Positions 8,870 to 41,944 of a stretch of 64,000 nt of DNA are shown one piece after another. Source of the stretch: Komagataeibacter xylinus NBRC 15237 (GTDB taxonomy: Bacteria > Pseudomonadota > Alphaproteobacteria > Acetobacterales > Acetobacteraceae); assembly GCF_001571345.1 (NCBI RefSeq), contig NZ_BCTP01000006.1:1-64000 (forward strand), read 5' to 3'. The translations under genes were made by a program, and so were the position numbers. Every line of letters begins with the position of its first letter. Positions within the stretch are counted from its first letter, which is position 1. Below the pieces are notes generated by a model. The model saw only the letters and a program-made list of their open reading frames with translations, did not search any database and had not been told where the DNA came from.

Positions 8870-8956
8870 ATAAAAGTTTTTGGTGAAGCTTTTTTCAAAA
8901 AGCTTCGAAGAACGCCGCCTTTTTGAATAAAGGCGATACCCCGAAACTTTTCTTAT
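8870..8956 (+). repeat. Dispersed palindromic repeat, near-complete copy 1
   Basis: Left outer arm AAAAGTTTTTGG (8872-8883). Hairpin A has arms GAAGCTTTTT / AAAAAGCTTC (8885-8906). Hairpin B is a slightly decayed CGCCGCC...AAAGGCG stem (8913-8935). The right outer arm is CCGAAACTTTT (8941-8951). Confidence 0.85.
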
Positions 8957-8964
8957 TTTGCCTC

Positions 8965-8980
8965 TGAACGTTATCGTTCA
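8965..8980. promoter_or_regulatory. Perfect inverted repeat TGAACG-TTAT-CGTTCA
   Basis: Six-bp arms with a four-base centre in non-coding DNA just beyond repeat copy 1. It could be an operator or a small hairpin; no neighbouring regulator gene identifies it. Confidence 0.35.
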
Positions 8981-9128
8981 TAATGGAAATGTCGCTCTGT
9001 TTATTCCCTATCCGCACAAAGGCTATCGCGATCCTAGCGTGTTCATGTGGCATGGTGGAATGGAAAACCGCCCGTATTGCGCACGGCGCGCATGTGGCTG
9101 TTTAAAGAGAGTGCATTGATAAAACAGG

Positions 9129-9186
9129 ATAAAAGTTTTTGGGCGCGCTCTTTTTTAAGGCGGCGTTCTTGAAGCCGTTACCTGAA
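9129..9186 (-). repeat. Dispersed palindromic repeat, decayed copy 2 (opposite orientation)
   Basis: It keeps the outer arm AAAAGTTTTTGG (9131-9142), then a decayed hairpin B (GCGCTCTTTTTTAAGGCGGCG), then a GAAG-containing remnant of hairpin A. The order of the two hairpins is reversed relative to copy 1. Confidence 0.7.
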
Positions 9187-9210
9187 GATCGGCGCGGAGG
9201 GGCGCATGCA

Positions 9211-9239
9211 AAAAGGGCCGGTGCTTGCGCAACCGGCCC
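9211..9239 (-). terminator. Rho-independent terminator of hpnR
   Basis: On the minus strand GGGCCGGT pairs with ACCGGCCC around a nine-base loop and is followed by a T-run (plus-strand AAAA at 9211-9214). It lies 32 bases past the hpnR stop. Confidence 0.8.
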
Positions 9240-9271
9240 TTGCGTGGCGGCGATGATTGACGCGGTGGGTG

Positions 9272-10816
9272 TCAGTCAACCGTGCTCATACGGGTTTCAT
9301 CAACGAACTTTTCAGTATCGTCATCGATCTTGCGCGACTTGCGGCCAGCGGGGCCATGCACGTACAGCGTCTTGCGGTCGATCTTCTGGTCAGAACCCTG
9401 CGGCTTGAGCGGCATTTCATATTCGGGCTTCTGCGCATGGTCGGCCATCTGCAACTCGGGGTTGAATACCGAGTTGAACTTCCAGATCATGGTCAGGAAG
9501 TTGGTCTGCCCCCGCAGGGCCAGGCGCAGGGCGATGCCCAGCGTATCCTTGATCGCGCTCCAGCCCAGATGCTTGTTGTTGAGGATCTGCTGGGTCTTGA
9601 CGAGTTCCTCATAGAACTCGCGCAGCGGCAGGGTGGTGGGCATGACCGCGTGCTGGATGTCGAACAGGCGGTAGTCACGCGTGGTCAGCTTGCGGGACTC
9701 GCTCTCCCATATCTCGGTGCCGGGGTAGGGGGTCGTGACCGAGATGTTCACGATATCCGGGATCTCGAGGCACCACTGGCGGATGACCTCGAAGCGCTCG
9801 CGGTCCCATGACGGGTCGGCAATCAGGTTGATGGCCACGATCAGGTCGAGCGAGCGGGCATATTCCAGCGCCTCGAAGTTGCGGTCCATCGACACGCGCT
9901 TGCGGAAGCGCTTCAGCCCTTCGGAATCCACCGCCTCAAGCCCGATGAAGATGTAGCTCAGCCCGATCTCTTTCCAGACCGCGAACACTTCCTTGTTGCG
10001 CATCAGCACGTCGGCGCGCGTCTCGAGGTAGTATTCCTTCTGGATGTTGCGGCGCTTGATTTCATCGGCAATGGCCATGCCGTGCTCGGCATGCACGAAG
10101 GCCACGTCATCGACGATGAAGATGCCGGGCTCCTTGATCTCCTGCAGTTCCTCGCCAATCACCTTGGCGCTCGCCGTGCGGTAGGAGCGGCCATAGAAGG
10201 TCCAGGCGCTGCAGAAGGTGCAGTCCCACGGGCAGCCACGGGCGAACTCGATGGAGGCGGCGGGGTCGAGGGTGCCGATGAAGTATTTGCGGCGGTGGCG
10301 CAGCAGGTCGCGCGCGGGGCGCACCTCATCAAGCGATTCGATGAAGATGGGCGGCGGGCCATCGCCATCCATGGTCACCACGCCGGGCACGGTGGTCAGG
10401 TCCTTGCCTTGCTCCCATGCCTCGAGCAGCAGGCCGACGGTGGCATCGCCCTCGCCCTTGAGCACGCAGTTGATGGCGCCATCGGACAGGGCCAGCACGT
10501 CACGCGCGATGAACGAGATGGAGTGCCCGCCAATGAACAGGAACACGTTGGGCAGGCGCTTGCGCGTTTCCTTGCACAGGTCGATGATCTCGGGAACATT
10601 GGCCAGGTAATTGCCCGAGAAGCAGATGGCATGCGGGCGGAATTCCTCGATGCGCTGCCAGTAATCAGGGTGCTTCTCGACCTGCAGGTCGAGGATCTGC
10701 ACGTCATGCCCCTTGTTGCGCGCGGCACCGGCAACCAGTTCAAGCCCCAGCGGTTCAAGACGCAGGAAGACCTTCGTGTACATGAGCGAGCTTGGATGAA
10801 CGGCCAGTAATCTCAT
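9272..10816 (-). CDS. hpnR: B12-binding radical SAM protein, hopanoid C-3 methylase HpnR
   Basis: A 514-residue protein with an N-terminal cobalamin-binding fold (about 1-140, beginning MRLLAVHPSSLMYTKVFLRL), a radical SAM domain with the cluster motif C195-x3-C199-x2-C202 (ARGCPWDCTFCSAW), and a C-terminal extension of roughly 150 residues. Length, domain order and sequence fit HpnR, which methylates ring A of bacteriohopanoids at C-3. 3-Methylhopanoids are well known from acetic acid bacteria and methanotrophs. A TGAGGT ribosome-binding site lies seven bases before the ATG, and a terminator follows. It stands alone, away from the main hpn cluster, as is common for this gene. Confidence is high for family and good for the exact function. 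Confidence 0.87.
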   Translation of the reverse strand: MRLLAVHPSSLMYTKVFLRLEPLGLELVAGAARNKGHDVQILDLQVEKHPDYWQRIEEFRPHAICFSGNYLANVPEIIDLCKETRKRLPNVFLFIGGHSISFIARDVLALSDGAINCVLKGEGDATVGLLLEAWEQGKDLTTVPGVVTMDGDGPPPIFIESLDEVRPARDLLRHRRKYFIGTLDPAASIEFARGCPWDCTFCSAWTFYGRSYRTASAKVIGEELQEIKEPGIFIVDDVAFVHAEHGMAIADEIKRRNIQKEYYLETRADVLMRNKEVFAVWKEIGLSYIFIGLEAVDSEGLKRFRKRVSMDRNFEALEYARSLDLIVAINLIADPSWDRERFEVIRQWCLEIPDIVNISVTTPYPGTEIWESESRKLTTRDYRLFDIQHAVMPTTLPLREFYEELVKTQQILNNKHLGWSAIKDTLGIALRLALRGQTNFLTMIWKFNSVFNPELQMADHAQKPEYEMPLKPQGSDQKIDRKTLYVHGPAGRKSRKIDDDTEKFVDETRMSTVD

Positions 10817-11200
10817 TCTTTTACCTCAGGCATCGATGGGGACGGTGACAACGCGCGACAGCCATACGCAATCTGGTAACAAATTTACAGCCAGTCCGGT
10901 GCTGTATTTGCAATTTTTATATATCACGCATGATTTAAAAAAAATCAGAATAATGACAGAGGGTGGCAATATAAGGGCCGCCTGTCATCAGGATCACGGT
11001 AATATCACCTATGCATTCAGATGATACCAGCATCTGGCTTCATCATATCTTCTTGGCAGATATGCTTTGTGTTCATGTCCGGCATTGCAGGTAGGGCACC
11101 TATGCATTGCCCACGCGGCACCCCCTGCCCGGCGTCTTGTCCCCTATCGCGGGCAGCGCTTTCGTGGCAGTCTTGCCAGCGCTTAAGCGACGGGGTCGAA
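10817..11200. other. 384-bp intergenic region between divergent hpnR and lipoprotein gene
   Basis: AT-rich around 10900-10960 (runs of T and A), consistent with promoters for hpnR on one strand and the small lipoprotein on the other. I could not place a convincing -35/-10 pair or a riboswitch here. Open frames crossing it are unlike proteins. Confidence 0.5.
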
Positions 11201-11515
11201 ATGAAGCTGAAGATTGTGGAAAAACTGCCTGCCCGCCTCGGGCTGCTGGCATGTGGGCTGGTAGTGCTTGGTGGCTGCACGGCCGAGATCGGGCGCAAGC
11301 CGTTCGAGAGTGACATAAAATGCCTGCGCGAGCAGCTGGGCACCACCATGCAGCTCAGCTTTCCCATCGCGGCGAATACCTGCCAGCGCATGAGCGACCA
11401 TAACTTCATCTTCGGTTCAAAGAAGAAGAAGGCCGTGCCGCTGCCGCTCAACCTGCGCGGCGCGCCCGACCTGCAGAAGATGGCCGATGAATACGGCTAC
11501 AGCTACACAAAATAG
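11201..11515 (+). CDS. Small predicted lipoprotein of unknown function
   Basis: A 104-residue protein with a clear lipoprotein signal: basic N-terminus (MKLKIVEKLPARLG), hydrophobic core and lipobox VLGG-Cys26. After cleavage it would be a membrane-anchored protein of about 79 residues with two further cysteines (KCLREQ and NTCQRM), which could form a disulphide in the periplasm, and a basic SKKKKAV stretch. The frame is open further upstream to 11021, but the signal peptide fixes the start at 11201. I do not recognise a named family. It is divergent from hpnR and convergent with the HNH gene. Confidence 0.7.
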   Translation: MKLKIVEKLPARLGLLACGLVVLGGCTAEIGRKPFESDIKCLREQLGTTMQLSFPIAANTCQRMSDHNFIFGSKKKKAVPLPLNLRGAPDLQKMADEYGYSYTK

Positions 11516-11591
11516 CGTGTCCGCCCGGTAAGGGAACCCTGGCCGCCCCGGCGTGTTGCGCCTGCGTTGCGCTGGCCAGGGCGGGGTGGCT

Positions 11592-12152
11592 TCAGTTTTC
11601 CAGTTCGGTATCCCAGTACAGGTAGTCGCGCCAGCTTTCGTGCAGGTAGTTGGGCGGGAAGGCGCGGCCGTTTTCCTGCAACCTGCGGCTTGAGGGGCGT
11701 GCGGGTGTGTGGGCGGGATACATGCGGATCTGGTGCGGCATGTAGGAGCCCTTGATCAGGTTGCACGGGCTGCAGGCGGTCACCACGTTTTCCCAACTCG
11801 TGCGACCGCCCTTGCTGCGGGGAATGACATGGTCGAAGGTCAGTTCCTGCGTGGGGAAGCGGGTGTTGCAGTACTGGCAGGAAAAATTGTCACGCAGGAA
11901 GACATTGAACCGTGTGAAGGCGGGCTTGCGGGCGGTAGGGATATAGTCCTTGAGCGCAATCACGCTGGGCAGGCGCAGGCTCTGGGTGGGGGAGTGGACA
12001 ACGGTGTCATATTCGCTCAGCACCGATACGCGGTCGAGCCACACGGCGCGGATGGCGTCCTGCCATGACCATAGCGAAAGCGGAAAATAGGAGAGCGGCC
12101 TGAAATCGGCATTCAGGACCAGGGCTGGCAGGTATTGACTGTCACAGGGCAC
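11592..12152 (-). CDS. HNH endonuclease family protein
   Basis: A 186-residue protein with an HNH fold in its C-terminal half: CQYCNTRF supplies the first Cys pair, LTFDHVIPRSKGG carries the DH catalytic histidine, NVVTACSPCN supplies the Asn and second Cys pair. The N-terminal half (about 80 residues, with ALVLNADFRPLSYFPLSLWSW) belongs with a widespread stand-alone HNH group found in many bacteria. Its biological role is not established; it is not next to restriction, phage or toxin genes here. I prefer the GTG at 12152 (AAAGGA nine bases upstream) to the GTG at 12182. Confidence 0.82.
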   Translation of the reverse strand: MPCDSQYLPALVLNADFRPLSYFPLSLWSWQDAIRAVWLDRVSVLSEYDTVVHSPTQSLRLPSVIALKDYIPTARKPAFTRFNVFLRDNFSCQYCNTRFPTQELTFDHVIPRSKGGRTSWENVVTACSPCNLIKGSYMPHQIRMYPAHTPARPSSRRLQENGRAFPPNYLHESWRDYLYWDTELEN

Positions 12153-12375
12153 GGACGCATTCCTTTCCGAATGCCGCCGCACAAAGTTCAGGCGTACTCT
12201 GTTCCGAAGCGAACGCCTTATGGATGTGCGTCGTCGTCAGGTAACTGTCGAATCTATTGCAGACCCCGCATGGCGTGGCAACCCCATGCCCGCGCGGGCG
12301 CAGGAGTTGATCCATCAACGCAGCAGGGCAGGGTGGGGGCGCATTTTTTCGCCATAACCCTGATTTGACTTGATA

Positions 12376-14518
<2,143 letters not shown>

Positions 14519-14531
14519 GGAACGGACAGCC

Positions 14532-15758
14532 ATGAACAGGAATGAAGGACTGCCCCATCCGCTGTTTGCGCAGCGGATGGAGCGCCTGAGCGTGCCCGCC
14601 ACCATTGCCATGGCGCAGCGCGCGCGTGAACTGCGCGCCAAGGGCGAGAAAGTGCTCTCGCTCGCATTGGGCGAGCCTGACTTCGCAACGCCCCCCGCCG
14701 TGATCGAGGCGGCGCACCGCGCGGCGCTGGACGGGCAGACCAAATACCCCCCCGTTGATGGCACGCCTGCGCTCAAGGCGGCGATCGCGCGCAAATTCGC
14801 GCGCGAGAACGCGCTGGACTACGCGCCGGGCGAGATCATGGTCTCGAACGGGGGCAAGCAGGTCATCTTCAATGCGTTCATGGCCACCGTGCAGCCGGGT
14901 GATGAAGTGGTCATTCCGCGCCCGTACTGGGTCAGCTACCCGCTGATTGTCGAGATGTTTGGCGGCACGCCGGTCTATGCCGACTGCCATGAGGCCGATG
15001 ATTTCCGCCTCAGGCCCGCGGCGCTGGAGGCCGCGATCACGTCACGCACCAAGTGGCTGGTGCTCAATTTCCCCAACAACCCCACTGGCGGCACCATGGG
15101 GGAGGCGGATCTCGCGGCCGTTGCGGAAGTGCTGCGCCGCCACCCGCATGTGCATGTGCTCAGTGACGAGATATACGAGCACCTGCTCTATGACGGGCAG
15201 CGCCATGCCTCGCTTGCCGCCGTCGCTCCCGACCTCAAGGGCCGTATCCTGACCCTGAACGGCGTGTCGAAAGCCTATGCCATGACTGGCTGGCGGGTGG
15301 GTTACGTGGGTGGCCCCACGCCGCTCATCCGCGCCATGACGGCCATACAGGGTAGTGCTACCTCGGGCATCTGCACCATCAGCCAGGCCGCTGCTGCCGC
15401 TGCCCTTGACGGGCCGCCCGACATTATCGCGCAGATGTGCGCGGTCTATGCCCGCCGGCGCGAGATGGTGGTGTCAACCCTGCGTGCCATTCCCGGCCTG
15501 ACCTGCGCCATGCCGCATGGGGCGTTTTATGCCTATCCCGGCATTGCGGGCTGCATCGGCCGCAGGACAGCGGAGGGGCGTATGCTCAACACGGACGAGG
15601 ATTTCGCCATTGCCCTGCTCGCCGAGCAGCATGTGGCCGTGGTGCATGGCTCGGCCTTCGGGCAGGGGCCTTACCTGCGCCTGTCCTATGCCACGAGCGA
15701 CGACATTCTCACGGAATGCTGCACACGCCTTGCGCGGTTTGTGGATGGGTTATCCTGA
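14532..15758 (+). CDS. Pyridoxal-phosphate aminotransferase, class I (copy 2)
   Basis: A 408-residue paralogue of the preceding enzyme with the same blocks in the same order: LALGEPDFATPP, YPPVDGTPALKAAI, NFPNNPTGG, DEIYEHLLYDG, the PLP lysine in [13 protein letters not shown] and LRLSYATS. AAGGA upstream supports the ATG at 14532. Tandem class Ib aminotransferases often differ in side-chain preference (aspartate, prephenate or aromatic acids); which applies here cannot be read from sequence. It most likely forms an operon with copy 1. A repeat copy follows 21 bases after the stop. Confidence 0.88.
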   Translation: MNRNEGLPHPLFAQRMERLSVPATIAMAQRARELRAKGEKVLSLALGEPDFATPPAVIEAAHRAALDGQTKYPPVDGTPALKAAIARKFARENALDYAPGEIMVSNGGKQVIFNAFMATVQPGDEVVIPRPYWVSYPLIVEMFGGTPVYADCHEADDFRLRPAALEAAITSRTKWLVLNFPNNPTGGTMGEADLAAVAEVLRRHPHVHVLSDEIYEHLLYDGQRHASLAAVAPDLKGRILTLNGVSKAYAMTGWRVGYVGGPTPLIRAMTAIQGSATSGICTISQAAAAAALDGPPDIIAQMCAVYARRREMVVSTLRAIPGLTCAMPHGAFYAYPGIAGCIGRRTAEGRMLNTDEDFAIALLAEQHVAVVHGSAFGQGPYLRLSYATSDDILTECCTRLARFVDGLS

Positions 15759-15779
15759 AGGGCATCAAGGCGCCCGGAT

Positions 15780-15850
15780 GCCGCCTTTTTTCAAAAAGGC
15801 GGCGTTCCTGGAAGCTTTTTTCAAAAAGCTTCACCAAAAACATCCTTATG
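15780..15850 (-). repeat. Dispersed palindromic repeat, well-preserved copy 3
   Basis: Hairpin B comes first (GCCGCCTTTTT / AAAAAGGCGGC, 15780-15803), then hairpin A (GAAGCTTTTT / AAAAAGCTTC, 15811-15832), then the outer arm ACCAAAAACATCC. The left outer arm is missing. Orientation is opposite to copy 1. Confidence 0.85.
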
Positions 15851-15892
15851 ATTTCTGGATGTTTTTCGGACTGACTTTTCAAACAGTCTCTT

Positions 15893-15940
15893 ATGGGAGG
15901 CGGTATTTTTTGAAGCTGGCTGATAAAGCTTCACCAGAAT
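15893..15940. repeat. Possible decayed remnant of the dispersed repeat
   Basis: GGCGGTATTTTTTGAAGCT followed by AAAGCTTCACCAGAA looks like a rearranged fragment of the same element, 45 bases from copy 3. Confidence 0.4.
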
Positions 15941-15952
15941 ATCGTGTTGTTT

Positions 15953-16435
15953 TCAGTCAGGATCGGGCGAGGGCGGGTTGAGCAGGAAAACCCCCTCGGT
16001 CAGGATGGCGGGCAGGAGCGGGGTTGCCAGCGGCAGGCCCGACAGCACGATCGCCCCTGCCGAGGCCGCGCAGGCCCCCACGTAGCCGGTGCGCCCGCCA
16101 AGGCGCTCGGCAATGACAAACAGAAAGACCGCCACAAGCTCCAGCACCGCAGCCCCCCCGAGGCGGAGCGGGTGCAACTGGGTCTGCAATCCCATATCCG
16201 ACAGCAGGCGCAGCAGCGCGGGCGACTGTGCCTGCGTGTCGCCCCCTAGTCCGAACATGAAGGAAAAGGGCAGGATCAGCACGCCGAGTATATCGCGCAG
16301 CAGGTTGATCAACCCGCTGACCAGCGGCAACAGCACCAGAATGGCGAGGCTCATGCTGGTGCAGGTGGCGACAATGATCAGTCCGACCTGTCTCTGCCGG
16401 GCCGCCGGGTTGTGCGGCGGCTCATCGGGCTGCAT
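15953..16435 (-). CDS. Predicted membrane protein of unknown function
   Basis: A 160-residue protein with about four hydrophobic segments: near residues 18-40 (VGLIIVATCTSMSLAILVLL), 44-65, 92-112 (AAVLELVAVFLFVIAE) and 118-145. It has a Pro/Asp-rich N-terminus and a PPSPDPD C-terminus. I recognise no family. It lies 67 bases downstream of the coiled-coil gene on the same strand and is probably co-transcribed with it. The ATG at 16435 is preferred over a GTG two codons upstream. Confidence 0.6.
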   Translation of the reverse strand: MQPDEPPHNPAARQRQVGLIIVATCTSMSLAILVLLPLVSGLINLLRDILGVLILPFSFMFGLGGDTQAQSPALLRLLSDMGLQTQLHPLRLGGAAVLELVAVFLFVIAERLGGRTGYVGACAASAGAIVLSGLPLATPLLPAILTEGVFLLNPPSPDPD

Positions 16436-16502
16436 GGGCACGGCGGCTTGCGGCTGGCGTCACCACCATTTTACGGGTTCGGGTTCATTGGGGTCAGCCT
16501 CG

Positions 16503-17111
16503 TCATTGCCTGCCTGGGGGGGGGCGGGCGAGCACGACCCGGTTTTCCGCCATGCGGTTGCGTGCCTTGTGTCGGCCGGCATCCTCACGCAGGCGGTCGG
16601 CCTCCTCGCGCGCGGCATAGATTTCGGCGCGCAGGCTCAGTATTTCAGCATCGCGTGCGGCGAGTTTGGTCTTGTTCTCGGCAGCGATGACATCGGCATG
16701 GCCGATGCGGGTGGTCAGGGAGCGGATCTGCGCCTGCGCTTCCGAAAGGCGGAGTTCCGCCTCCTCGCGCAGCTTCTGCTCGAACTGGATCTTGTGGCGC
16801 AACTGCTCCGCTTCGCCCCGGTCTTCAGGCTGGGCATGCAGCACGCGCGGCGAGGCGCGTCCGGTGGTCAGTGAATGATGTTCGACACGGACATCGCCAT
16901 CCTGCACGAATTTGCGGCGGCGCTGGGTGGGGTCTGCCTGGCGCACGGGGCGCGCCTTGGCCTGCGGGGCCTTGGGCGCGGCGGGGCCGCGCGGCTTGCC
17001 CTTGCCAAGGCGCTCGAGCGCCTGGCGGAAGGCGGTTTCATTGACTTCTTCGCGTTGGGGGCTCTGGTCTTCTTCCTTCGAAAAGGAAAGAAAATCGTTA
17101 TAAGATGACAC
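16503..17111 (-). CDS. Coiled-coil protein of unknown function
   Basis: A 202-residue, highly charged, soluble protein. Residues 1-90 are low-complexity and basic (PRGPAAPKAPQAKARPVR, then RRRKFVQDG). About residues 98-185 form a long predicted coiled coil with heptad-like Leu, Ile and Ala spacing (RHKIQFEQKLREEAELRL, LTTRIGHADVIAAENKTKL). It begins MSSYNDFLSFSKEED. No enzymatic motif is visible. It sits upstream of a small membrane protein, so an envelope or cytoskeleton-linked role is possible but only a guess. An AT-rich promoter region of about 400 bp lies upstream. Confidence 0.62.
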   Translation of the reverse strand: MSSYNDFLSFSKEEDQSPQREEVNETAFRQALERLGKGKPRGPAAPKAPQAKARPVRQADPTQRRRKFVQDGDVRVEHHSLTTGRASPRVLHAQPEDRGEAEQLRHKIQFEQKLREEAELRLSEAQAQIRSLTTRIGHADVIAAENKTKLAARDAEILSLRAEIYAAREEADRLREDAGRHKARNRMAENRVVLARPPPGRQ

Positions 17112-17516
17112 AGCAGAACTCTCGATAACTCAATGCACCATGCGAGACGTTGGATGGGGTCATATTTAGGAAATTATTCCTCTGACCGGGATGCCGATGG
17201 TGTCTGTTTTTAAGTGATTGATCGAGCATATAACGCTTTTCGGGCAAGCTGTGCAAGAGGTATGAAGGTAAATATAATAATGTAATGACATAATTATTAT
17301 GTCATAATATGTTTAACAAAATCCAAATAAATTAAACAGAAATAAGAATATAAATTAATAATATTTTTTCATTTTTAAACAAAAAGACGACAGATTTGAT
17401 AATGAAGTTCATTGTATTGGTGCGCCCGCGTGGCAGCGGTCACTTGCGTTTTTAGGGGTGGTTGGGCCAGATAAGGCGCGATAACGTCTTTTCCGTAATA
17501 TCCGGCAGGATACAAT
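17112..17516. other. 405-bp AT-rich intergenic region with a perfect palindrome
   Basis: The region separates divergent genes (coiled-coil protein and gluconokinase). From about 17260 to 17400 it is strikingly AT-rich for this genome, with long A/T runs and a perfect inverted repeat at 17285-17305. I see no ORF with a ribosome-binding site in it. Confidence 0.7.
17285..17305. promoter_or_regulatory. Perfect 10-bp-arm palindrome in AT-rich promoter region
   Basis: Arms ATGACATAAT and ATTATGTCAT around a single T. The symmetry and position between divergent genes suit an operator for a dimeric regulator. Confidence 0.5.
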
Positions 17517-18671: not shown

Positions 18672-18764
18672 GGATTGATCCGTTTGTCATGAGGAGAGTA
18701 ATAAAAAACTTTAAGTCAAACTGTTATATATAAATAAACCATAAGAAAAATATATTCTGTAAAT

Positions 18765-18813
18765 CAAAAAACGCCATCTGTTTGAATACAAGGCGGCACC
18801 CACACTCTTTTAT
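18765..18813 (+). repeat. Dispersed palindromic repeat, decayed half-copy 4
   Basis: Hairpin B remnant (AACGCCATCTGTTTGAA then AAGGCGGCACCCA) followed by a right-arm remnant ending CTTTTAT. Hairpin A is absent. Confidence 0.65.
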
Positions 18814-21308: not shown

Positions 21309-21368
21309 GATAAAAGACAAAAGTTTTGGGCGAAGCTGCTTTCAAAAAGCTTCAGGAAACGCCCAGAA
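21309..21368 (+). repeat. Dispersed palindromic repeat, partial copy 5
   Basis: Left arm ATAAAAGACAAAAGTTTTGG, then hairpin A (GAAGCTGCTTT...AAAAAGCTTC, 21332-21353), then a short hairpin B remnant (AAACGCCCAGAA). Confidence 0.7.
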
Positions 21369-30092: not shown

Positions 30093-30148
30093 AGATAAAA
30101 ATTTTTAGGTGCCGCCCTTTTTCAAAAAAGCTGCACCAAAAGCTTCGT
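30093..30148 (-). repeat. Dispersed palindromic repeat, scrambled copy 6
   Basis: Left arm GATAAAAATTTTTAGG, half of hairpin B (GCCGCCCTTTTTC), then AAAAAAGCTGCACC and an AAGCTTCG remnant of hairpin A. Confidence 0.65.
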
Positions 30149-33226: not shown

Positions 33227-34008
33227 ACATGACAGTCGCGCAGCATGATGCCATGCCCGCAGCCATCTCGGTGCGGAACCTCGATTTCTATTACGGCGCG
33301 CACCATGCGCTCAAGGATATCTCGATCGACTTCCCGCAAGGGCAGGTGACGGGCATGATCGGGCCTTCGGGCTGCGGCAAGTCCACGCTGCTGCGCGTGC
33401 TCAACCGCATGTACGACCTCTATCCCGGCCAGCGCGCCACGGGCGAGGTGATCTTTGATGGCTGCAACATCATCGGCCCGAAGGTGAACCTCAACGTGCT
33501 GCGCTCGCGCGTGGGCATGGTGTTCCAGAAGCCCACGCCCTTCCCCATGTCGATCTATGACAACATCGCCTTTGGCGTGCGCCTGCATGAGCGGCTCGAC
33601 CGGGCGGCGATGGAGGCGCGGGTGGAAGACGTGCTCAGGCGCGTGGCCCTGTGGCCCGAGGTGCGCGACCGGCTGCGCGATTCGGCGGCCGCCCTTTCGG
33701 GCGGGCAGCAGCAGCGCCTGTGCATTGCGCGCACCATCGCCACCCGCCCCGAGGTGGTGCTGCTCGATGAGCCGACCAGCGCGCTCGACCCGGTCTCGAC
33801 CGCGCGCATCGAGGAACTGCTTGATGAGCTGAAGGCTGATTTCACCATCGCCATCGTCACCCACAACCTGCAGCAGGCGGCGCGCTGCGCCGACCAGGTG
33901 GCGTTCTTCTATATGGGCGAGGTGGTGGAGGTGGACAGCGCGGACCGCATGTTCACCACGCCCCGTGAAAAGCGCACGCAGGATTATATTACCGGGCGTT
34001 TTGGCTAG
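33223..34008 (+). CDS. pstB: Phosphate ABC transporter ATP-binding protein PstB
   Basis: A 261-residue ATPase with Walker A (GPSGCGKST), Q-loop ([16 protein letters not shown], the PstB-specific form), signature ([16 protein letters not shown]), Walker B ([13 protein letters not shown]) and H-loop (IVTHNLQQA), ending in [13 protein letters not shown]. It powers phosphate import by PstCA. PhoU and PhoB, which often follow pstB, are not here; the next gene is an unrelated Spy-like protein behind its own promoter region. Confidence 0.96.
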
Positions 34009-34155
34009 CCGCGCGCCCTGACCTTACATTTTGTAGCAAGTTTGCCCCTATTGAACCGGGTGGGGTGATGTAGCGTTGCGTTTACAGGTCTTGTATCAGC
34101 CGCAGGCTGCATGCAGGGTATGAAGCAGGTTATAACAGGAGTAGACTTGGTTCCC

Positions 34156-34683
34156 ATGATGAAGAAACTGATTCTCGCTGCCACGATCGTCGGCGGTATG
34201 GCAACCGGCCTTTCCGGCCAGGCTTTTGCAAAGCATCACCACGGCCCGCCGCCGGGTGGCTGCGGCATGATGGCTGGCCCGATGGGCGGCCCGGGTGGCG
34301 GCGCCTATGGCATGCCGTTCCTTGGCAACGTGCAGCTGACCTCGGCCCAGCACAAGAAGCTGCAGGCGATCCTGAAGGACAGTCACCCCGATTTCCACGC
34401 CGACATGGAGCAGGAGCATGGGCTGCACAAGCAGATCCAGACCCTGCTCGTGGCGCCGGGCAAGGTTGATGAATCCCAGATCGTTGGCCTGCAGCAGCAG
34501 ATCACGGCCATCCACCAGCGCCATGAAGCCGCCCGCCTGCAGACGGCCATCCGCATCCACGATATCCTGACGGCTGACCAGCTGAACCAGATCCGTGCGA
34601 CGCAGGACAAGATCGACAGCCTGCACGAGCAGCTGCGCGCGCTGACCGCGCCCCCGCAGCCGCCCGAAGACGGCAAGAAGTAA
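34156..34683 (+). CDS. Spy/CpxP-like periplasmic protein with metal-rich N-terminus
   Basis: A 175-residue secreted protein: signal peptide MMKKLILAATIVGGMATG with cleavage near AFA, then a His/Met/Gly-rich segment (KHHHGPPPGGCGMMAG) that could bind metal, then an all-helical domain with two LTxxQ-type motifs (LTSAQHKKLQAIL and LTADQLNQIRATQ), the hallmark of the Spy/CpxP/ZraP group. Such proteins act as ATP-independent periplasmic chaperones or metal-stress sensors. Start could be 34156 or 34159. A strong terminator follows. No cpx- or zra-type kinase is adjacent. Confidence 0.8.
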   Translation: MMKKLILAATIVGGMATGLSGQAFAKHHHGPPPGGCGMMAGPMGGPGGGAYGMPFLGNVQLTSAQHKKLQAILKDSHPDFHADMEQEHGLHKQIQTLLVAPGKVDESQIVGLQQQITAIHQRHEAARLQTAIRIHDILTADQLNQIRATQDKIDSLHEQLRALTAPPQPPEDGKK

Positions 34684-34724
34684 GACCCGCCTGCCTGCCC
34701 CGCGCAGGCATGGAGGAAAAAAAG

Positions 34725-34759
34725 CGGCTGCCCGGCCCTGTGCCCGGCAGCCGTTTTTT
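34725..34759 (+). terminator. Rho-independent terminator after the Spy-like gene
   Basis: CGGCTGCC (34725-34732) pairs with GGCAGCCG (34746-34753), followed by TTTTTT. Confidence 0.88.
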
Positions 34760-34778
34760 ATTGCGGAGTCTCCGCAAT
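34760..34778. promoter_or_regulatory. Perfect palindrome abutting the ffh promoter
   Basis: Arms ATTGCGGAG and CTCCGCAAT around a single T. It ends two bases before the -35 hexamer of the ffh operon promoter, a position suited to an operator or activator site. Confidence 0.5.
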
Positions 34779-34780
34779 GC

Positions 34781-34809
34781 TTGACACGCAGGGGCGGGGC
34801 GCGATACAT
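34781..34809 (+). promoter_or_regulatory. Sigma-70-type promoter of the ffh-rpsP-rimM-trmD-rplS operon
   Basis: TTGACA at 34781-34786, a 17-base spacer and ATACAT at 34804-34809, about 70 bases before the ffh start. The match to the housekeeping consensus is the best in the window. Confidence 0.7.
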
Positions 34810-34880
34810 CCGCCCGACTAATCAGGCACGTCACTTCGCGAGGGTTCGCGCAGTGGCGCGTCTACTTTTGGGGAAATACG

Positions 34881-36275
34881 TTGTTCGAGACGCTGTCAGG
34901 CAAGCTTTCCGGTGTGTTCGATGGTCTCGCCAAGCGCGGGGCCCTGTCGGAAGCAGATGTTACGGAAGCAATGCGCGAAGTGCGTCTGGCCATGCTGGAT
35001 GCCGACGTGGCGCTGCCTGTCGTCAAGGATTTCGTCAACAAGGTACGTGAACGCGCCGTGGGCCATGAGGTGCTTGACAGCATCTCGCCCGGCCAGGCCG
35101 TTGCCAAGATCGTCAATGATGCGCTGATCGATGCCCTTGGCGGTGCCGGTGCGGTTCCCCTCAACCTGAATGCCGCCCCGCCGGTGCCGATCCTGATGGT
35201 CGGCCTGCAGGGCTCGGGCAAGACCACCACATCGGGCAAGATCGCCCGTCGCCTCGCCCAGCGCGAGCGCAAGAAGGTGCTGCTCGCCAGCCTTGATACG
35301 CAGCGCCCGGCAGCGCAGTTGCAGCTCGCCCAGCTTGCCGAGCGCGCAGGTGTGACCTCGCTGCCCATCATCGCAGGCCAGACGCCGGTGCAGATTGCCG
35401 AGCGCGCCATGGATACGGGCCGCCGCGAGGGGTATGACATCGTCATCCTCGATACCGCGGGCCGCCTGTCCATCGATGAAGCGCTGATGGACGAGGTCCG
35501 CGCCATCCGCGCAGCAACCGACCCTGCGGAAACGCTGCTCGTGGTCGATGCCATGACCGGGCAGGACGCGGTCAATACCGCCAAGGCGTTCAACGAGGCC
35601 GTGGGCGTGACCGGCGTGGTCATGACTCGCATGGATGGCGATGCCCGTGGCGGTGCCGCCCTGTCCATGCGTGCGATCACGGGTGCGCCGATCAAGCTGA
35701 CCGGCTCGGGCGAGAAGCTCGACGCCCTGGAGGAATTCCACCCCGAGCGTGTTGCCGGTCGCATCCTCGGCCTTGGCGACATCGCGGGCCTGGTGGAAAA
35801 GGCGGCCGATACCCTTGATCATGAGGAGAGCGAGAAGCTCGCCCTCAAGATGATGCAGGGCAAGTTCGATCTGGATGACTACGCCGCCCAGATCCGCCAG
35901 ATCAACAAGATGGGGTCCATTTCCGGCATTCTGGGCATGCTGCCGGGCATGGGCAAGCTGAAGGACGCGCTGGGCGACAAGGAGCTTGATACCTCCGTGC
36001 TCAAGCGCCATCAGGCCATCATTTCATCCATGACCCGCAAGGAGCGGCGCACGCCCTCCATCATCAAGGCCTCGCGCAAGAAGCGCATCGCCAGCGGGTC
36101 CGGTACGACCGTGCAGGAGATCAACCGTCTGCTCAAGCAGTATGACGCGATGGCCTCCATGATGAAGCGGTTCAGCAAGTTGGGCGTGAAGGGACTGATG
36201 CGTCAGGGTCTGTCCGCACTCATGCCAAACGGGGGTCGCCCCCCGGGCGGCGGCGGGCGGCCACCTTTCGGCTGA
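34881..36275 (+). CDS. ffh: Signal recognition particle protein Ffh
   Basis: A 464-residue SRP54 GTPase that, with 4.5S RNA, targets membrane proteins to the Sec machinery. The N domain leads into the G domain (GLQGSGKTTTSGKIA, DTQRPAA, LDTAGRL, TRMDGDARGGAAL, TGSGEKLDALEEF). The methionine-rich M domain follows (MGSISGILGMLPGMGK, MTRKERRTPSII, RKKRIASGSG), with an unusual Gly/Pro-rich tail (GGRPPGGGGRPPFG). It starts with TTG at 34881, following GGGGAAA; the conserved N-terminus FETLSGKLSGVFDGL begins right after. First gene of the operon with rpsP, rimM, trmD and rplS. Confidence 0.96.
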   Translation: MFETLSGKLSGVFDGLAKRGALSEADVTEAMREVRLAMLDADVALPVVKDFVNKVRERAVGHEVLDSISPGQAVAKIVNDALIDALGGAGAVPLNLNAAPPVPILMVGLQGSGKTTTSGKIARRLAQRERKKVLLASLDTQRPAAQLQLAQLAERAGVTSLPIIAGQTPVQIAERAMDTGRREGYDIVILDTAGRLSIDEALMDEVRAIRAATDPAETLLVVDAMTGQDAVNTAKAFNEAVGVTGVVMTRMDGDARGGAALSMRAITGAPIKLTGSGEKLDALEEFHPERVAGRILGLGDIAGLVEKAADTLDHEESEKLALKMMQGKFDLDDYAAQIRQINKMGSISGILGMLPGMGKLKDALGDKELDTSVLKRHQAIISSMTRKERRTPSIIKASRKKRIASGSGTTVQEINRLLKQYDAMASMMKRFSKLGVKGLMRQGLSALMPNGGRPPGGGGRPPFG

Positions 36276-36333
36276 GCCTGAGCGTCGTTCCCGTTTTTTC
36301 TTTTTGTCTTTCTACTGTCTGGAGAAATCTTAA

Positions 36334-36678
36334 ATGAGCCTCAAGATCCGTCTCGCCCGCGCAGGCGCCAAGAAGCGCCCCTACTACCACATTGTCGTGG
36401 CTGACAGCCGCTCCCCGCGTGATGGCCGCTTCATCGAGCGCGTGGGTTCGTACAACCCGATGCTGCCGTCCGACCACGCTGACCGCGTGCGCCTGGTGGC
36501 CGAGCGCATCACGCACTGGCTGTCCAACGGCGCGCTGCCGACCGACCGCGTGGCCCGTTTCCTGGGCAACGCTGGCCTGGCGCCGAAGCCGACCTGGAAC
36601 GAGCAGCCCAAGAAGTCCGCGCCCAAGAAGCGCGCGCAGGAACGTGCCGCCGCCGCTGCCGAAGCAGCCGCAGCGTAA
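36334..36678 (+). CDS. rpsP: 30S ribosomal protein S16
   Basis: A 114-residue S16 protein: N-terminal [25 protein letters not shown] and [14 protein letters not shown] are the family signature. The C-terminal tail is extended and Lys/Ala-rich, as in other alphaproteobacteria. CTGGAGAAATC precedes the ATG. It is essential for 30S assembly. The order ffh-rpsP-rimM-trmD-rplS is widely conserved. Confidence 0.97.
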
Positions 36679-36718
36679 CTGACGCGATAGACAGGCAGGA
36701 AAGGCAGGCAGTCATCCC

Positions 36719-37270
36719 ATGAACCACGATCAGGTCCTGATGGGTGTGGTGGGTCGTCCGCATGGCGTGCGGGGGCTTGTGCATGTGCGCAGCTACACCG
36801 CCGTGGCGGAAGACCTGGCCACCTATGACGGGCTGGTCGATGATCTGGGCCGCCCGTGGCGGCTGACATGGCATGGCAATGGCATTGCCCGGCTGCACGA
36901 TGCGGCAGGCAATACCATTGACAGCCGTGAGGCCGCCCAGCAGCTGGTCAACCGCAAGCTGTACGTGCCGCGCACCAGCCTGCCCGAACCCGATGCGGAC
37001 GAATTCTACTTCGCCGATCTGGTCGGGCTGGACGTGCGCGAGCAGGGCGGCGGGCGGGTGATCGGCCGCGTGATGGCCGTGCATGACTATGGTGCTGGCA
37101 CCAGCCTTGAAATCGATGGGGCAGGGGGCAACCTCCTGCTGCCGTTCACCGAAGGCTGCGTGCCGGTGGTGAATGTGCGCGCAGGCTGGATTGAAGTCTG
37201 CCTGCCCGATGAGATCGAGGTTCCGGTCGAATGCTTTCCCGGCACGGCCAGCGCGGATGATGCGCCATGA
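36719..37270 (+). CDS. rimM: Ribosome maturation factor RimM
   Basis: A 183-residue two-domain protein. The N-terminal RimM domain has [20 protein letters not shown] and the C-terminal PRC-barrel has [12 protein letters not shown] and [13 protein letters not shown]. RimM binds S19 and helps mature the 30S head. The stop overlaps the trmD start (ATGA). Confidence 0.94.
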
Positions 37271-38013
37271 CGTGGCAGGCAACGGCGCTGACGCTGTTCC
37301 CCGCCATGTTCCCCGGCACGCTGGGGCAGTCACTGGCCGGGCGCGCGCTCGAGCGTGGCATCTGGTCACTGGATGCGCGCGACATGCGTGAATACGGGCT
37401 GGGGCGGCACCGGGTGGTGGATGATACGCCTTTTGGCGGCGGCGCGGGCATGGTCATGCGGCCTGACGTGGTGGCTGCGGCCATTGCCGATGTCGACCGT
37501 GCCGGTCGCCCGCTGGTGTATCCCACGCCGCGCGGGCGACCGTTGGCGCAGGCCGATATCCGCCGTTATGCGGCGGGGCCGGGCGTTGTGGTGCTGTGTG
37601 GCCGCTATGAAGGGGTGGATGAGCGCGTGCTCGAAGCCTCTGGTGCCGAACAGGTCTCGATCGGGGATTACATCCTCTCGGGCGGGGAAGTGGCGGCAAC
37701 GGTGCTGCTTGATGCCTGCGTACGGCTGCTGCCGGGCGTGATGGGATCGGGCGAGAGCGCGGTTGAGGAAAGCTTTGCCGACGGCCTGCTTGAATATCCG
37801 CTTTATACCAAGCCGGCGCAATGGGACGGGCGCGACGTGCCCGAGGTCCTGCTGTCCGGTCATCATGCCGCGATCGCCCGGTGGCGGCACGCGGCATCCG
37901 AGACGGTGACGCAGGCGCGTCGGCCGGACCTGTGGGCGGCCTATCAGGCCCGCACGGGTCAAGACACTCCCCGGACTACAGGCCCCCGTGCCGATGTGGA
38001 CCGGCTGAACTGA
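37267..38013 (+). CDS. trmD: tRNA (guanine-N1)-methyltransferase TrmD
   Basis: A 248-residue SPOUT-class enzyme that makes m1G37 in tRNAs reading CNN codons, including tRNA-Pro(GGG), whose gene lies at 51.5 kb. The trefoil-knot SAM site is seen in [15 protein letters not shown] and [26 protein letters not shown] is also typical. It overlaps rimM by four bases. Confidence 0.96.
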
Positions 38014-38044
38014 ACATGAAATCCTATCGAACGAGGACCGGATC

Positions 38045-38440
38045 ATGAACGTTATCCAGAAGTACGAGGCGGAAGAGATCGCCCGCCTGACCGCCATCCG
38101 CGCGGTGCCCGAATTCGCGCCCGGTGACACCGTGCGCGTTGGTGTGGAAGTGGTTGAAGGCACCCGCAAGCGCGTGCAGAACTACGAAGGCGTGGTCATT
38201 GCCCGCTCCAACAAGGGCCTGAACAGCAACTTCACCGTGCGCAAGATTTCCAACGGTGAGGGCGTGGAGCGCGTGTTCCCGCTGTATTCCCCCACCATTG
38301 CGGAAATCGCCGTGGTGCGCCGTGGCGTCGTGCGCCGCGCGAAGCTGTATTACCTGCGTGGCCGTCGCGGCAAGTCCGCCCGTATTGCCGAGCGCAAGCG
38401 CGAAGTGGCGGCACCCGCCGCGCCCGCAGCAGCTGAGTAA
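38045..38440 (+). CDS. rplS: 50S ribosomal protein L19
   Basis: A 131-residue L19 with the family blocks [55 protein letters not shown] and [15 protein letters not shown], and an Ala/Pro-rich tail. GAGGA lies upstream of the ATG. Last ribosomal gene of the ffh operon; leuC follows after a 137-bp leader. Confidence 0.97.
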
Positions 38441-38451
38441 TACACTGACCT

Positions 38452-38488
38452 TTCGCCCGTTTCCCGCCGCATGGTGGAAACGGGCGAA
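38452..38488 (+). promoter_or_regulatory. 13-bp perfect hairpin in the leuC leader
   Basis: TTCGCCCGTTTCC (38452-38464) pairs perfectly with GGAAACGGGCGAA (38476-38488). No T-run follows, so it is not a simple terminator. It could be a Rho-type end of the ribosomal operon or an mRNA-stabilising or attenuating structure for leuCDB. Confidence 0.45.
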
Positions 38489-38577
38489 CCGTTTCATGCA
38501 AGATTTTCCGGCTGCCTGTTGCGTGCGTTGCCTGCGCGTGATGGCGGCCTGTTTCCGTCCGGGAGAGGATAAGCAAG

Positions 38578-39981
38578 ATGGCCCCGCGCACATTGTTCGA
38601 CAAGATATGGGACAGCCATGTGGTCGAAACCCTCCCGGACAAGACGGCCATCCTCTACATCGACCGTCACCTTGTGCATGAGGTCACGAGTCCGCAGGCG
38701 TTTGAAGGCCTGCGCCTGAGCGGCCGCCGCCTGCGCCACCCGGATGCGACGATTGCGGTGGTGGACCATAACGTGCCCACATCCGACCGCACCCAGCCCA
38801 TCGAGGAGGCGGAAAGCCGCAACCAGATCGAGACGCTCGAGCGCAATGTGAAGGAATTCGGCGTGCCGTATTTCCCGCTGCTCTCGGCGCGGCAGGGCAT
38901 CGTGCATGTGGTCGGCCCCGAGCAGGGTATCTCGCTGCCGGGCATGACCATTGTATGCGGCGACAGCCATACCTCCACCCATGGCGCGATGGGCGCCCTG
39001 GCGTTTGGCATCGGCACGTCCGAGGTCGAGCATGTGATGGCGACCCAGACCATCCTGCAGAAACCCGCGAAGAACATGAAGGTCGTGGTCGAGGGGCAGG
39101 TTGGCCCCGGTGTCACCGCCAAGGACATCATGCTTGCCATCATCGGCCATATCGGCACGGCGGGCGGCACGGGGCACGTGATCGAATTCGCGGGTTCGGC
39201 CATCCGTGAACTCGACATGGCGGGCCGCATGACGATCTGCAACATGTCGATCGAGGCCGGTGCCCGCGCGGGGCTGGTGGCACCTGACGAGACCACGTTC
39301 GAATACGTGCGCGGCCGCCCCTTCGCCCCGAAAGGCGAGGGGTTTGACGAGGCGGTGGCCTACTGGAAGACGCTGGCTGCGGATGAAGGGGCGCATTACG
39401 ACCGCGTGGTCGAACTGCGCGCCGAGGACATCACCCCTGTGCTGACCTGGGGCACCAGCCCCGAGACGGTCATCCCCGTCACCGGCACCGTGCCCGACCC
39501 GGCAGCCGAGGCCGATCCCGGCAAGCGCGCGCAGATGCAGCGCATGCTGGACTATATGGGGCTTGAAGCGGGCCAGAAGATTGCGGGCACGCCGGTTGAT
39601 GTCGTGTTCATCGGGTCATGCACCAACAGCCGCATCGAGGACCTGCGCGCCGCAGCAGCCATTGCCGCGGGCCGCAAGGTGGCTGAAGGCGTGCGGGCGA
39701 TGATCGTGCCCGGATCGGGTATCGTGAAGGCGCAGGCGGAAGAGGAAGGGCTGGACAAGGTCTTTCTTGAAGCCGGTTTCGAATGGCGCGAGGCCGGGTG
39801 CTCCATGTGCCTGGGCATGAACCCCGACCGGCTGACACCGGGGCAGCGCTGTGCGTCTACCTCCAATCGTAATTTTGAGGGCAGGCAGGGCCCCGGCGGG
39901 CGCACGCACCTGCTCTCGCCTGCTATGGCGGCGGCCGCTGCCGTGACCGGATGCCTGACCGATGTGCGGGAGCTGATCTGA
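38578..39981 (+). CDS. leuC: 3-Isopropylmalate dehydratase large subunit
   Basis: A 467-residue aconitase-family subunit. With LeuD it isomerises 2-isopropylmalate to 3-isopropylmalate in leucine synthesis. The 4Fe-4S ligands are the Cys in [13 protein letters not shown] and the CxxC of [13 protein letters not shown]-terminal [11 protein letters not shown] and [30 protein letters not shown] are typical. The gene starts after AGAGGATAAGCAAG and ends two bases before leuD. Confidence 0.97.
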
Positions 39982-39983
39982 AA

Positions 39984-40607
39984 ATGGATAAATTCACTGT
40001 TCTCTCGGCCGTAGCCGCTCCGCTGCCTGAAGAAAACATCGATACCGACAAGATCATTCCCGCGCGCTTCCTCAAGACCACCAAGCGCACCGGGCTGGGC
40101 GTGCATGCGTTCGACAGCATGCGCTACCGCGAGGACGGATCGGAAAACCCGGATTTCGTGCTGAATCAGGAGCCTTACCGCAAGGCGGAGATCCTGATCA
40201 CGTATGACAATCTGGGCTGCGGTTCGTCGCGCGAGCATGCGCCGTGGGCATTGCTGGATTTTGGCATCCGCTGCGTGATTGCGCCGTCATTCGCCGATAT
40301 TTTCCATAACAACTGCTTCAAGAACGGCATCCTGCCTATCGTGCTGCCGCATGATGTCTGCACGCAGTTGATGGAAGATGCCCGCATGGGCGGCAATGCG
40401 CGGCTGACCATCGACCTGCCCCGGCAGGTGGTGGTGCGGCCCGATGGCACCGAAGTGCCGTTCAATGTCGATCCGCTGCGCAGGAAGCTGCTGCTCGAAG
40501 GGCTGGACGATATTGGCCAGACGCTCCAGCACGAGAAGGAAATCACCACCTTCGAGGAACGCCGCAGCAAGGCGCAGCCGTGGATTCCGCGCATCGTGCT
40601 CGATTGA
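39984..40607 (+). CDS. leuD: 3-Isopropylmalate dehydratase small subunit
   Basis: A 207-residue swivelling domain subunit partner of Leu[42 protein letters not shown] and [20 protein letters not shown] are diagnostic. The ATG at 39984 follows the leuC stop directly; no separate promoter is expected. Normal length. Confidence 0.97.
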
Positions 40608-40687
40608 GCGGGCAGGGCGGTTCCTGCCGCCCGCAGCCGCACGGCAAAAAGCATTTAACAAACCGATTGAACCGGATGGGAAACGTC

Positions 40688-41806
40688 ATGTCCGCACCCA
40701 AGAAGCTCCTGATCCTGCCTGGCGATGGCATTGGCCCCGAGATCATGAACGAGGTCCGCCGCATCATGGACTGGATGGCGCAGGCGCGTGGCATCCGCTT
40801 TGATGTGAGCGATGACCTTGTTGGCGGTGCGTCGCTTGCGGTGCATGGCCAGCCGATTACGCAGGACGTGATTGATGCCGCGCGCGCGGCGGATGCGGTG
40901 CTGTTCGGCTCGGTGGGCGACCCGAAATGGGCTTCCGCCGGGTTTGACCGCCGGCCCGAGATCGCGATTCTCAAGCTGCGGCAGGAGCTTGGCCTGTTTG
41001 CCAACCTGCGCCCGGCCAAGGTGTTCGACTCGCTGGCCGATGCCAGCACGCTCAAGCCCGAAGTGGTGCGCGGCCTCGACATCATGATCGTGCGCGAGAC
41101 GGTGGGTGGCATCTATTTCGGCACGCCCCGTGGCATCGAGACCCTGGCCGATGGCACGCGCCGGGGCATCAACACCGAGGTTTACACCACGCCGGAAATC
41201 GAGCGCGTGGCCCGCGTGGCGTTTGAACTGGCCCGCAAGCGCGACAACCGGGTGTGCTCGGTCGAGAAATGCAACGTGATGGAAAGCGGCCTGTTGTGGA
41301 AAGAGGTCGTGACCGACCTGCACGCGCGGGAATACCCTGATGTGCAGTTGACCCACATGCTGGCCGATAACTGCGCCATGCAGCTTGTGCGCAACCCGCG
41401 CCAGTTTGATGTGATCGTGACCGGAAACCTGTTTGGCGACCTGCTGTCCGACCTGGCTTCGATGCTGACCGGCAGCCTTGGCATGCTCCCTTCGGCCACG
41501 CTCGGGGCCAAAGGCGAGGATGGCCGCATGCCCGCGCTGTATGAGCCGATTCATGGCAGCGCGCCCGACATTGCCGGGCAGGGCAAGGCCAACCCGCTGG
41601 CGCAGATCCTCTCGTTTGCCATGCTGCTGCGCTACTCGTTCGACATGCAGGACGATGCAGCCCTGATCGAGCAGGCTGTCTCGAACGTGCTCGACCGTGG
41701 CCTGCGCACGCCCGACATCATGAGTGCTGGCCGGACGGAAGTGAACACGGCAGGCATGGGCGCCGCCGTGGTGGAAGAACTGGCCCGGCTGAACAAGGCA
41801 GGCTGA
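40688..41806 (+). CDS. leuB: 3-Isopropylmalate dehydrogenase
   Basis: A 372-residue NAD-dependent beta-decarboxylating dehydrogenase, third enzyme of leucine synthesis. Blocks [66 protein letters not shown] and [25 protein letters not shown] are intact. The ATG at 40688 has GGATGGG just upstream; an in-frame ATG inside that site (40676) is less likely. A very strong terminator ends the leuCDB unit 16 bases after the stop. Confidence 0.97.
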
Positions 41807-41822
41807 TCTGCCCTTCTAAACC

Positions 41823-41857
41823 AAAAGCCCGGCATGGTGTTTCATGCCGGGCTTTTT
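41823..41857 (+). terminator. Rho-independent terminator of leuCDB
   Basis: A perfect 14-bp stem (AAAAGCCCGGCATG / CATGCCGGGCTTTT) around a six-base loop, running straight into a T-run. Confidence 0.93.
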
Positions 41858-41864
41858 ATTAATG

Positions 41865-41944
41865 AAAGTTTTTGGTGAAGCTTTTTTCAAAAAGTTTCAA
41901 GGAACGCAGCCTTTTTGAAAAAAGGCTGCGCCCAAAAAACTTTT
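41865..41944 (+). repeat. Dispersed palindromic repeat, best complete copy 7
   Basis: Left outer arm AAAGTTTTTGG (41865-41875). Hairpin A is GAAGCTTTTT / AAAAAGTTTC (41877-41898). Hairpin B is a perfect 12-bp stem CGCAGCCTTTTT / AAAAAGGCTGCG (41905-41930). The right outer arm is CCAAAAAACTTT (41932-41943). Hairpin B has compensatory changes (GCAGCC with GGCTGC) relative to other copies (GCCGCC with GGCGGC), which shows selection or replication of the folded form. Confidence 0.92.

Follow-up and report, generated by a model that had tools for sequence, protein, structure and literature searches.

A dispersed palindrome behind the genes of Komagataeibacter xylinus and its long form with the features of an IS5-type MITE

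Duplication of a TNA target is typical of IS5/IS1031-type elements. MITEs of the IS5 family are short, have no coding capacity and carry inverted ends next to a 3-bp TNA duplication, and the element described here is alike in all of these respects. It is unlike them in having a conserved two-hairpin core which also occurs alone, and its autonomous partner is a candidate. The REP/BIME sequences are also extragenic, palindromic, high in copy number and mostly situated between convergent or tandem genes, as stated in passages of PMC3733652. However, the present element has two different hairpins within an outer stem of an 84-bp unit, and its genome gave no match to PF01797. The GTAG and CGTC tags were absent by eye from the 84-bp consensus; GACG was present in some single copies through linker variation. 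Correia elements of Neisseria are MITEs that were reported to invert (an excerpt of PMC10969869, citing Elbeyioglu 2017). According to the same excerpt they lie upstream of genes with promoters, whereas the present copies lie behind genes. The SPRITE repeat of Streptococcus pneumoniae, a different organism, carries a terminator-like sequence by the description in that excerpt of PMC10969869. No description of our element was found in the titles and abstract openings of open-licence PMC papers, and a 16-base string of the core occurred in no open-licence PMC paper. The portion of PMC12306157 that was covered does not mention the genus Komagataeibacter, and that of PMC4686929 mentions MITEs in general terms only.

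The element was studied starting from a 64-kb window, i.e. the whole stretch of K. xylinus NBRC 15237 DNA that was analysed. The initial annotation had reported a dispersed palindrome at nine places. A profile HMM, built from an alignment (A1) of 54 copies including the intact window copies at 8870 and 41862, matched all nine of them at E<=3.2e-4 in an 864-kb search (Table 1), and the element proved to be real and larger than first described. Beyond that description, outer arms with an inverted end (15876-15892) were recognised, and copy 7 proved to be flipped in one relative. A structure model of the core, R1, matched strongly at 41862, 8870 and 15764 (75-97 bits), weakly at three further places (E 1.6e-4 to 0.0025) and at two more with E 0.11 and 0.16. 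At 9129 it had no match up to E 5, and a separate 168-bp model of the long form matched there.

Table 1. Copies of the element in the 64-kb window, with the match of the profile HMM and the occurrence in relatives
Feature	Position	Strand	HMM match	Score	Relatives
Remnant around hairpin B, between convergent genes	8392..8442	+	8392-8442	HMM 24 bits; R1 E 0.0025	
Intact core, short form	8870..8953	+	8871-8951	R1 93.7 bits	common to G018
Right half of long form with right arm	9095..9179	-	9130-9176	long-form model E 4.9e-8	
Core, left arm and left inverted end; right end lost	15764..15893	-	15772-15845	long-form model 95 bits, positions 1-130 of 168	
Fragment adjoining the 15764 copy	15897..15939	-	15897-15939	HMM 20 bits	
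Decayed copy	18764..18812	+	18764-18812	HMM 22.5 bits	fuller at same place in L131, L133, L140
Left half (outer arm and hairpin A)	21319..21363	+	21319-21363	HMM 33 bits	absent in L132
Decayed copy	30096..30143	-	30096-30143	HMM 28 bits	absent in G018
Intact core, copy 7	41862..41946	+	41863-41943	R1 97.1 bits	

The copy at 8870 has the genes 8454-8663(-) and 9272-10783(-) as neighbours, and an unrelated stretch of about 240 bp was found at its place in the relative G014. In the 15764 copy the left inverted end GAGACTGTTTGAAAA was located at 15876-15890; the fragment adjoining it was without a match at this place in either G018 or G014. Copy 7 is flanked by the convergent genes 40676-41806(+) and 41951-42688(-). 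A fuller copy was present at the 21.3-kb place in the relative L133, and the decayed window copies were considered credible since relatives carry fuller copies at the same places (18.7 kb and 21.3 kb). Compared with Rfam at gathering scores, the window gave a single match, a tRNA gene (51548-51621, plus strand).

A search for further copies, which had been named as a check in the initial annotation, was run with a profile on a sample of 864 kb, 24% of the 3.62-Mb genome. It yielded 98 copies at E<=1e-3, and a typical sample would imply about 410 for the whole genome. Allowing two mismatches at most, the 22-base hairpin A had 164 forward and 154 reverse matches in the genome (reversed control 0), many places being counted twice because the hairpin is palindromic. 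Copies were also recorded in Gluconacetobacter entanii and Novacetimonas hansenii, as well as in plasmid records of Komagataeibacter (five) and Novacetimonas (one); none was recorded in phage records. One copy (C1:125633-125671) had shrunk to the outer arms and hairpin A, forming one long near-perfect palindrome; its equivalent was less perfect in G018, and the full core was kept in G014.

The core consensus obtained from A1 (54 copies, genome sample of NBRC 15237) was ATAAAAGTTTTTGGTGAAGCTTTTTTCAAAAAGCTTCGAAGAACGCCGCCTTTTTGAAAAAAGGCGGCACCCAAAAACTTTTAT, an 84-bp sequence consisting of a 14-pair outer stem, hairpin A, a 7-base linker and hairpin B. As the initial annotation had supposed, it was predicted to fold as a three-way junction (-38.9 kcal/mol, z -8.0 against 200 shuffles). 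An exception was the minus strand of copy 7, for which another fold was preferred (-29.2, z -5.1), and by these predictions ideal folding is not universal among the copies. Either strand of the core reads as an A-tract, the three-way-junction fold and a U-tract.

The pairing in A1 was compared with shuffled controls. Paired cells amounted to 91.0% versus 89.5%, two-sided changes were seen in 13 pairs versus 8.1 (reached by 2 of 500 shuffles) and in 34 cells versus 16.8 (reached by none of 500), and every measure of covariation dropped when the pairing partner was slid. The paired changes of copy 7, which keep the stem, had been taken to suggest that the folded form matters; the changes are real and the covariation exceeds that of the shuffles, but a selected fold is not proven thereby. 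Covariation counts alone are no proof of selection, because they are inflated both by the kinship of the copies and by replication template switching, which can create compensatory stem changes (PMC8794818). In 18 pairs of copies compared between NBRC 15237 and G018, the substitution rates were 4% for hairpin A, 13% for hairpin B, 12% for the outer stem, 19% for the linker and 11% for the flank, hairpin A being the sole part of the core that was slower than the flank. Compensatory changes in the same 18 pairs (hairpin B with 4 compensated and 3 broken doubles) were too few to be used as an argument for either selection or template switching.

The sequence common to the flanks of many copies ended in GAGACTGTTTGAAAA and its complement, and the genome contained 64 matches to this 15-mer when one mismatch was allowed (control 0). 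The long-form model matched 89 places in the 864-kb sample, with the left end reached by 23, the right end by 25, both by 13 and at least one by 35, while 40 were core only, a class that depends on cut-offs set by the authors. An exact 17-base form of the end was present in 15 of 19 Komagataeibacter genomes, NBRC 15237 included; when 20 stretches around ends were fetched, 18 matched the long form at that end and both ends were recognisable in 10. All sequence examined contained 36 distinct full-length copies with at least 11/15 bases matched at both ends. They were 122-165 bp in length (25 of them 160-165 bp) and without coding capacity. Identical triplets flanked 18 of the 36, compared with 7.3 expected after shuffling left and right triplets, and the share rose to 10/14 when both ends matched at least 14/15. 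The pattern TNA was fitted by 25 left and 28 right triplets.

A comparison of orthologous places for presence and absence, also proposed at the outset, provided one clean empty site. The plasmid p1 of Novacetimonas hansenii (L342) reads CTTA-element-TTA, as opposed to a single TTA in pGXY010 of K. medellinensis (L395), where the TTA corresponds on the complementary strand to the stop codon that ends a DotG/IcmE/VirB10-family gene. The MITE-like nature suggested in the initial annotation thus held for the long form, with inverted ends, a 3-bp duplication and this empty site, and the element can be regarded with good confidence as a new family of IS5-type MITEs. In L342 the right-hand TTA copy carries an IS630 within its TA; the comparison with L395 places it beside the element, in the right-hand duplication, and the reading of the Novacetimonas copy as lying within IS630 was rejected. 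A single stop codon, that of a dot/icm-like gene on a conjugative plasmid, thus contains both the element and the IS630 (L342:2953-3117). In G014, two chromosomal sites scored as absent (opposite C1:137700 and g12:114455 of NBRC 15237) retained the outermost arm bases and look like deletions rather than virgin sites. At the place of copy 7 in G006 (L284, L289), the assembly was broken by what looked by eye like an IS end. The break falls on the T-run immediately preceding the element, and such places may attract insertions.

The best candidate for a parent was an IS5-family gene (PF13340, PF01609) on contig C62 of NBRC 15237 (L240/L261), about 1.4 kb end to end. The right end of this element, GAGACTGTTTCAAAAGTTAG, agreed with the MITE end of L212 in all but 1 of 20 bases, and TTA was present on both sides; the left end matched the MITE end poorly. 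The element was found at its whole length in 1 of 19 genomes, NBRC 15237 itself, and copies in G013 and G015 had ends of similar type. By this resemblance the IS5-type element at C62 is a candidate parent only. No autonomous element with both ends matching the MITE was found, and an automatic search of 30 IS5-type loci detected no inverted-end pairs with matching TNA. The locus L227 was rejected as an autonomous parent, being another IS (end CCTGTTGGGAATT, as in L241/L242) beside an element end. In the IS5-family elements L240, L239, L262 and L267 the transposase was followed by a small differing frame (92, 85, 106 and 95 aa) and then by the right end, and two contigs of G015 shared the transposase end and the right end but had different small frames, suggesting that these frames are exchangeable cargo. 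They had no Pfam match at a meaningful E-value.

The placement of the copies was determined relative to genes called by a purpose-made simple hexamer caller (765 genes, 87-90% coding, in the 864-kb sample). As previously claimed, the copies were intergenic: 97 of the 98 overlapped an intergenic region, and the remaining one was at a contig end. By context, 55 were convergent, 38 tandem and 4 divergent, and the regions occupied were 51/97, 36/439 and 3/98, respectively (convergent versus the rest, Fisher p 3e-24). The distance from a copy to the facing stop codon had a median of 18 bp and quartiles of 8 and 50 (n=148). Orientation in the tandem contexts was 23 to 15.

At least one end was recognisable in 76 distinct elements, and in 20 of these the triplet next to it was exactly the stop codon of the facing gene; one end was offset by -1 and none by -2, +1 or +2. 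Another count gave 13 of 45 ends with a facing gene (70 ends examined). Random insertion into TNA triplets of non-coding and stop positions would give a share of 11-15%, and the excess was about twofold with a binomial p of 0.0002 to 0.007, values that are overstated as some of the 76 elements are mutually orthologous. Insertion at such a triplet is silent, since both TAA and TGA fit TNA and the codon is made whole again by the 3-bp duplication. Tolerance accounts for much of the excess, as it is only about twofold. A canonical hairpin-plus-T site preceded the copy at 9/96 convergent gene ends, compared with 14/61 convergent ends without a copy (p 0.02), a difference confounded by the lack of space; counting canonical sites of any kind within 110 nt, 23 of the 96 ends that face copies had one. 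The outer stem is followed by UUUU and is AU-rich and branched, a form that the canonical-terminator scan does not score.

We proposed that the palindrome is the payload of an about 160-bp MITE with IS5-type features, which would be moved in trans by an IS5-family transposase. Where the TNA target is TAA or TGA, the codon is restored by the duplication, as in the 20 elements above. The arms would then erode until the 84-bp core is left close behind the gene, and copies with both, one or no end were all seen. Most likely the core would end transcripts in both directions or block exonucleases, for example where genes converge. Owing to its inverted-repeat arms the segment between them occurs flipped between species, most likely by replication template switching, and flipping would do no harm to a two-way device. 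The MITE may also have captured an older element, which is the weakest step; related cores without these ends in other Acetobacteraceae genera are the reason for considering it. Taken whole, from the palindromic payload and silent insertion at stops to erosion into a flipping two-way core, this proposal was given an even chance of being correct. A transcript-end function would be the best-fitting mechanism and is consistent with the placement behind stop codons. Two observations spoke against a function: the relatives L134-L137 lack the 15.8-kb copy and have 8-17 nt between the same convergent genes with no visible substitute, and the substitution rates of hairpin B and the outer stem were not below that of the flank.

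Mere tolerance behind genes is a strong rival. It is quite possible, if somewhat short of probable, that the element is a selfish MITE without host function, that its copies lie behind genes only through the purging of insertions elsewhere while old copies decay, and that hairpins and flips reflect mutation mechanics. The inverted ends, the duplication and the empty site agree with this, as do a core whose substitution rate, hairpin A excepted, is close to that of the flank, 15.8- and 21.3-kb copies that are dispensable in relatives, and the two G014 sites resembling deletion scars. It accounts less well for the occupation of about half of the convergent regions (51/97), for a hairpin A slower than the flanks and for the related cores behind stop codons in other genera.

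In a survey of the family, R1 at E<=1e-3 matched 20 of 150 genomes, representing 13 of 102 genera, with at most 30 candidates per genome being scored. Very strong matches, among those listed, were restricted to the own genus (3/3 genomes drawn) and the genus g73 (2/2). From ten weaker genomes and the family survey, 21 of 27 loci from other genera were readable and corresponded to 20 distinct places. Most of these loci had an outer AAAAGTTTTTT-like arm with its complement and two inner inverted repeats, and the inner stems differed by genus, e.g. GTGGACCC/GGGTCCAC in place of GAAGC/GCTTC. Ten of the 20 had the junction as their minimum-energy fold, nine of them when the exact match was folded and L389 over 96 bases, and the other 10 preferred one long imperfect stem. 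A facing stop codon was within 35 nt of 17 of the 20. The contexts of the 20 were 14 tandem, 4 convergent, 1 divergent and 1 unassigned, and recognisable transposon ends were absent by eye. Judged by the outer stem and the common plan, the cores of other genera are probably homologous to that of Komagataeibacter, convergence being the alternative. The genome G161 (3.4 Mb, 66% complete) had at least 144 matches among 150 candidates scored, with both palindrome strands counted (e.g. on C20, C225, C351 and C581). Several of them lay on short contigs and scored the same, which would suit a recent amplification.

A family of host terminators or 3'-end stabilisers, more widespread in Acetobacteraceae and older than the MITE and spread by recombination or gene conversion, with the IS5-like ends as a later accident in Komagataeibacter, is a more doubtful explanation. 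It would suit the loci of other genera, which lack recognisable ends by eye and mostly lie close to the facing stop, and the 40 of 89 own copies that were core only by the chosen cut-offs. However, the near-uniform copies within one genome need a dispersal route, of which the MITE was the only one seen, and half of the loci in other genera were without the junction fold. A reading that goes further is that Acetobacteraceae have a class of palindromic two-way transcript-end elements with stems that turn over and a constant plan of outer stem and two inner hairpins, captured between IS5-type ends in Komagataeibacter. A miniature transposon would then deliver a bidirectional terminator, ready to act, onto stop codons that the 3-bp duplication restores, and its flips would cost no function. 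This reading is unlikely, as the junction fold was found in only 10 of the 20 loci.

Flips were assessed by comparing orthologous places between species. With G018, 39 of the 98 copies were comparable, as the genomes overlap in part (flanks about 95% identical): 29 had the same orientation, 5 were inverted, 3 absent or decayed and 2 ambiguous. The inverted loci were C1:137700, C6:41863 (window copy 7), C7:15562, C7:25266 and C7:78314; C7:45370 looked inverted in the pairwise alignment, yet was outside the five calls. Comparison with G014 at 19 loci gave 12 same, 0 inverted, 5 absent or decayed and 2 ambiguous, and that of G018 with G014 at 26 loci gave 15 same, 2 inverted (one weak, 21 versus 4 bits), 3 absent and 6 ambiguous. 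At copy 7, among the readable genomes, hairpin A came first in NBRC 15237, G014, G006, G015 and G008, and the opposite order was found in G018 and G017. If G018 is closer to NBRC 15237 than to G017, as the identities to NBRC 15237 suggest (G018 95%, G017 92%), at least two flips occurred there. At C7:15562 the outer arms looked exchanged too (by eye), which suggests that the inverted repeats drive these events and that the breakpoint is not fixed. In yeast, and with short spacers, arms are homogenized and spacers inverted when templates are switched at short inverted repeats, according to passages of PMC8604942. Orthologous cores were compared with random copies: identity was 0.858 versus 0.795 for the same orientation and 0.863 versus 0.834 for inverted ones, with a mean percentile of ortholog-likeness of 0.74 (51 same-orientation pairs) and 0.61 (7 inverted pairs). 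Since orthologous cores were just modestly more alike than paralogues, flipped places may possibly represent replacement by another copy through the common arms.

The in-place inversions with colinear flanks would also fit a dedicated site-specific recombinase flipping the core as a phase switch. Such a switch is improbable, as the arms beyond the core seem exchanged at C7:15562 (by eye), so that breakpoints would vary, and the tandem orientations (23 to 15) reveal no strong orientation-dependent use. A REP/BIME-type element moved by a Y1 (RAYT) transposase, as entertained in the initial annotation, is hardly credible in spite of the extragenic, palindromic, high-copy placement behind genes that REPs share (passages of PMC3733652), given that PF01797 had 0 matches in the genome where the same search was positive in 5/14 control genomes, that 84 bp with two hairpins compares with 20-40 bp, and that the mobile form has TNA-duplicating inverted ends.

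The element shows how mobile DNA may do almost no harm: insertion at gene ends is silent when the target triplet covers two stop codons and 3 bp are duplicated, and a strand-symmetric payload could even be useful there. The copies also call for caution, in that compensatory changes in palindromes need not reflect selection on RNA. Because cellulose producers used in industry carry hundreds of copies, each a natural replicate, one can measure in them how palindromes invert, how their arms are homogenized and how transcript ends arise.
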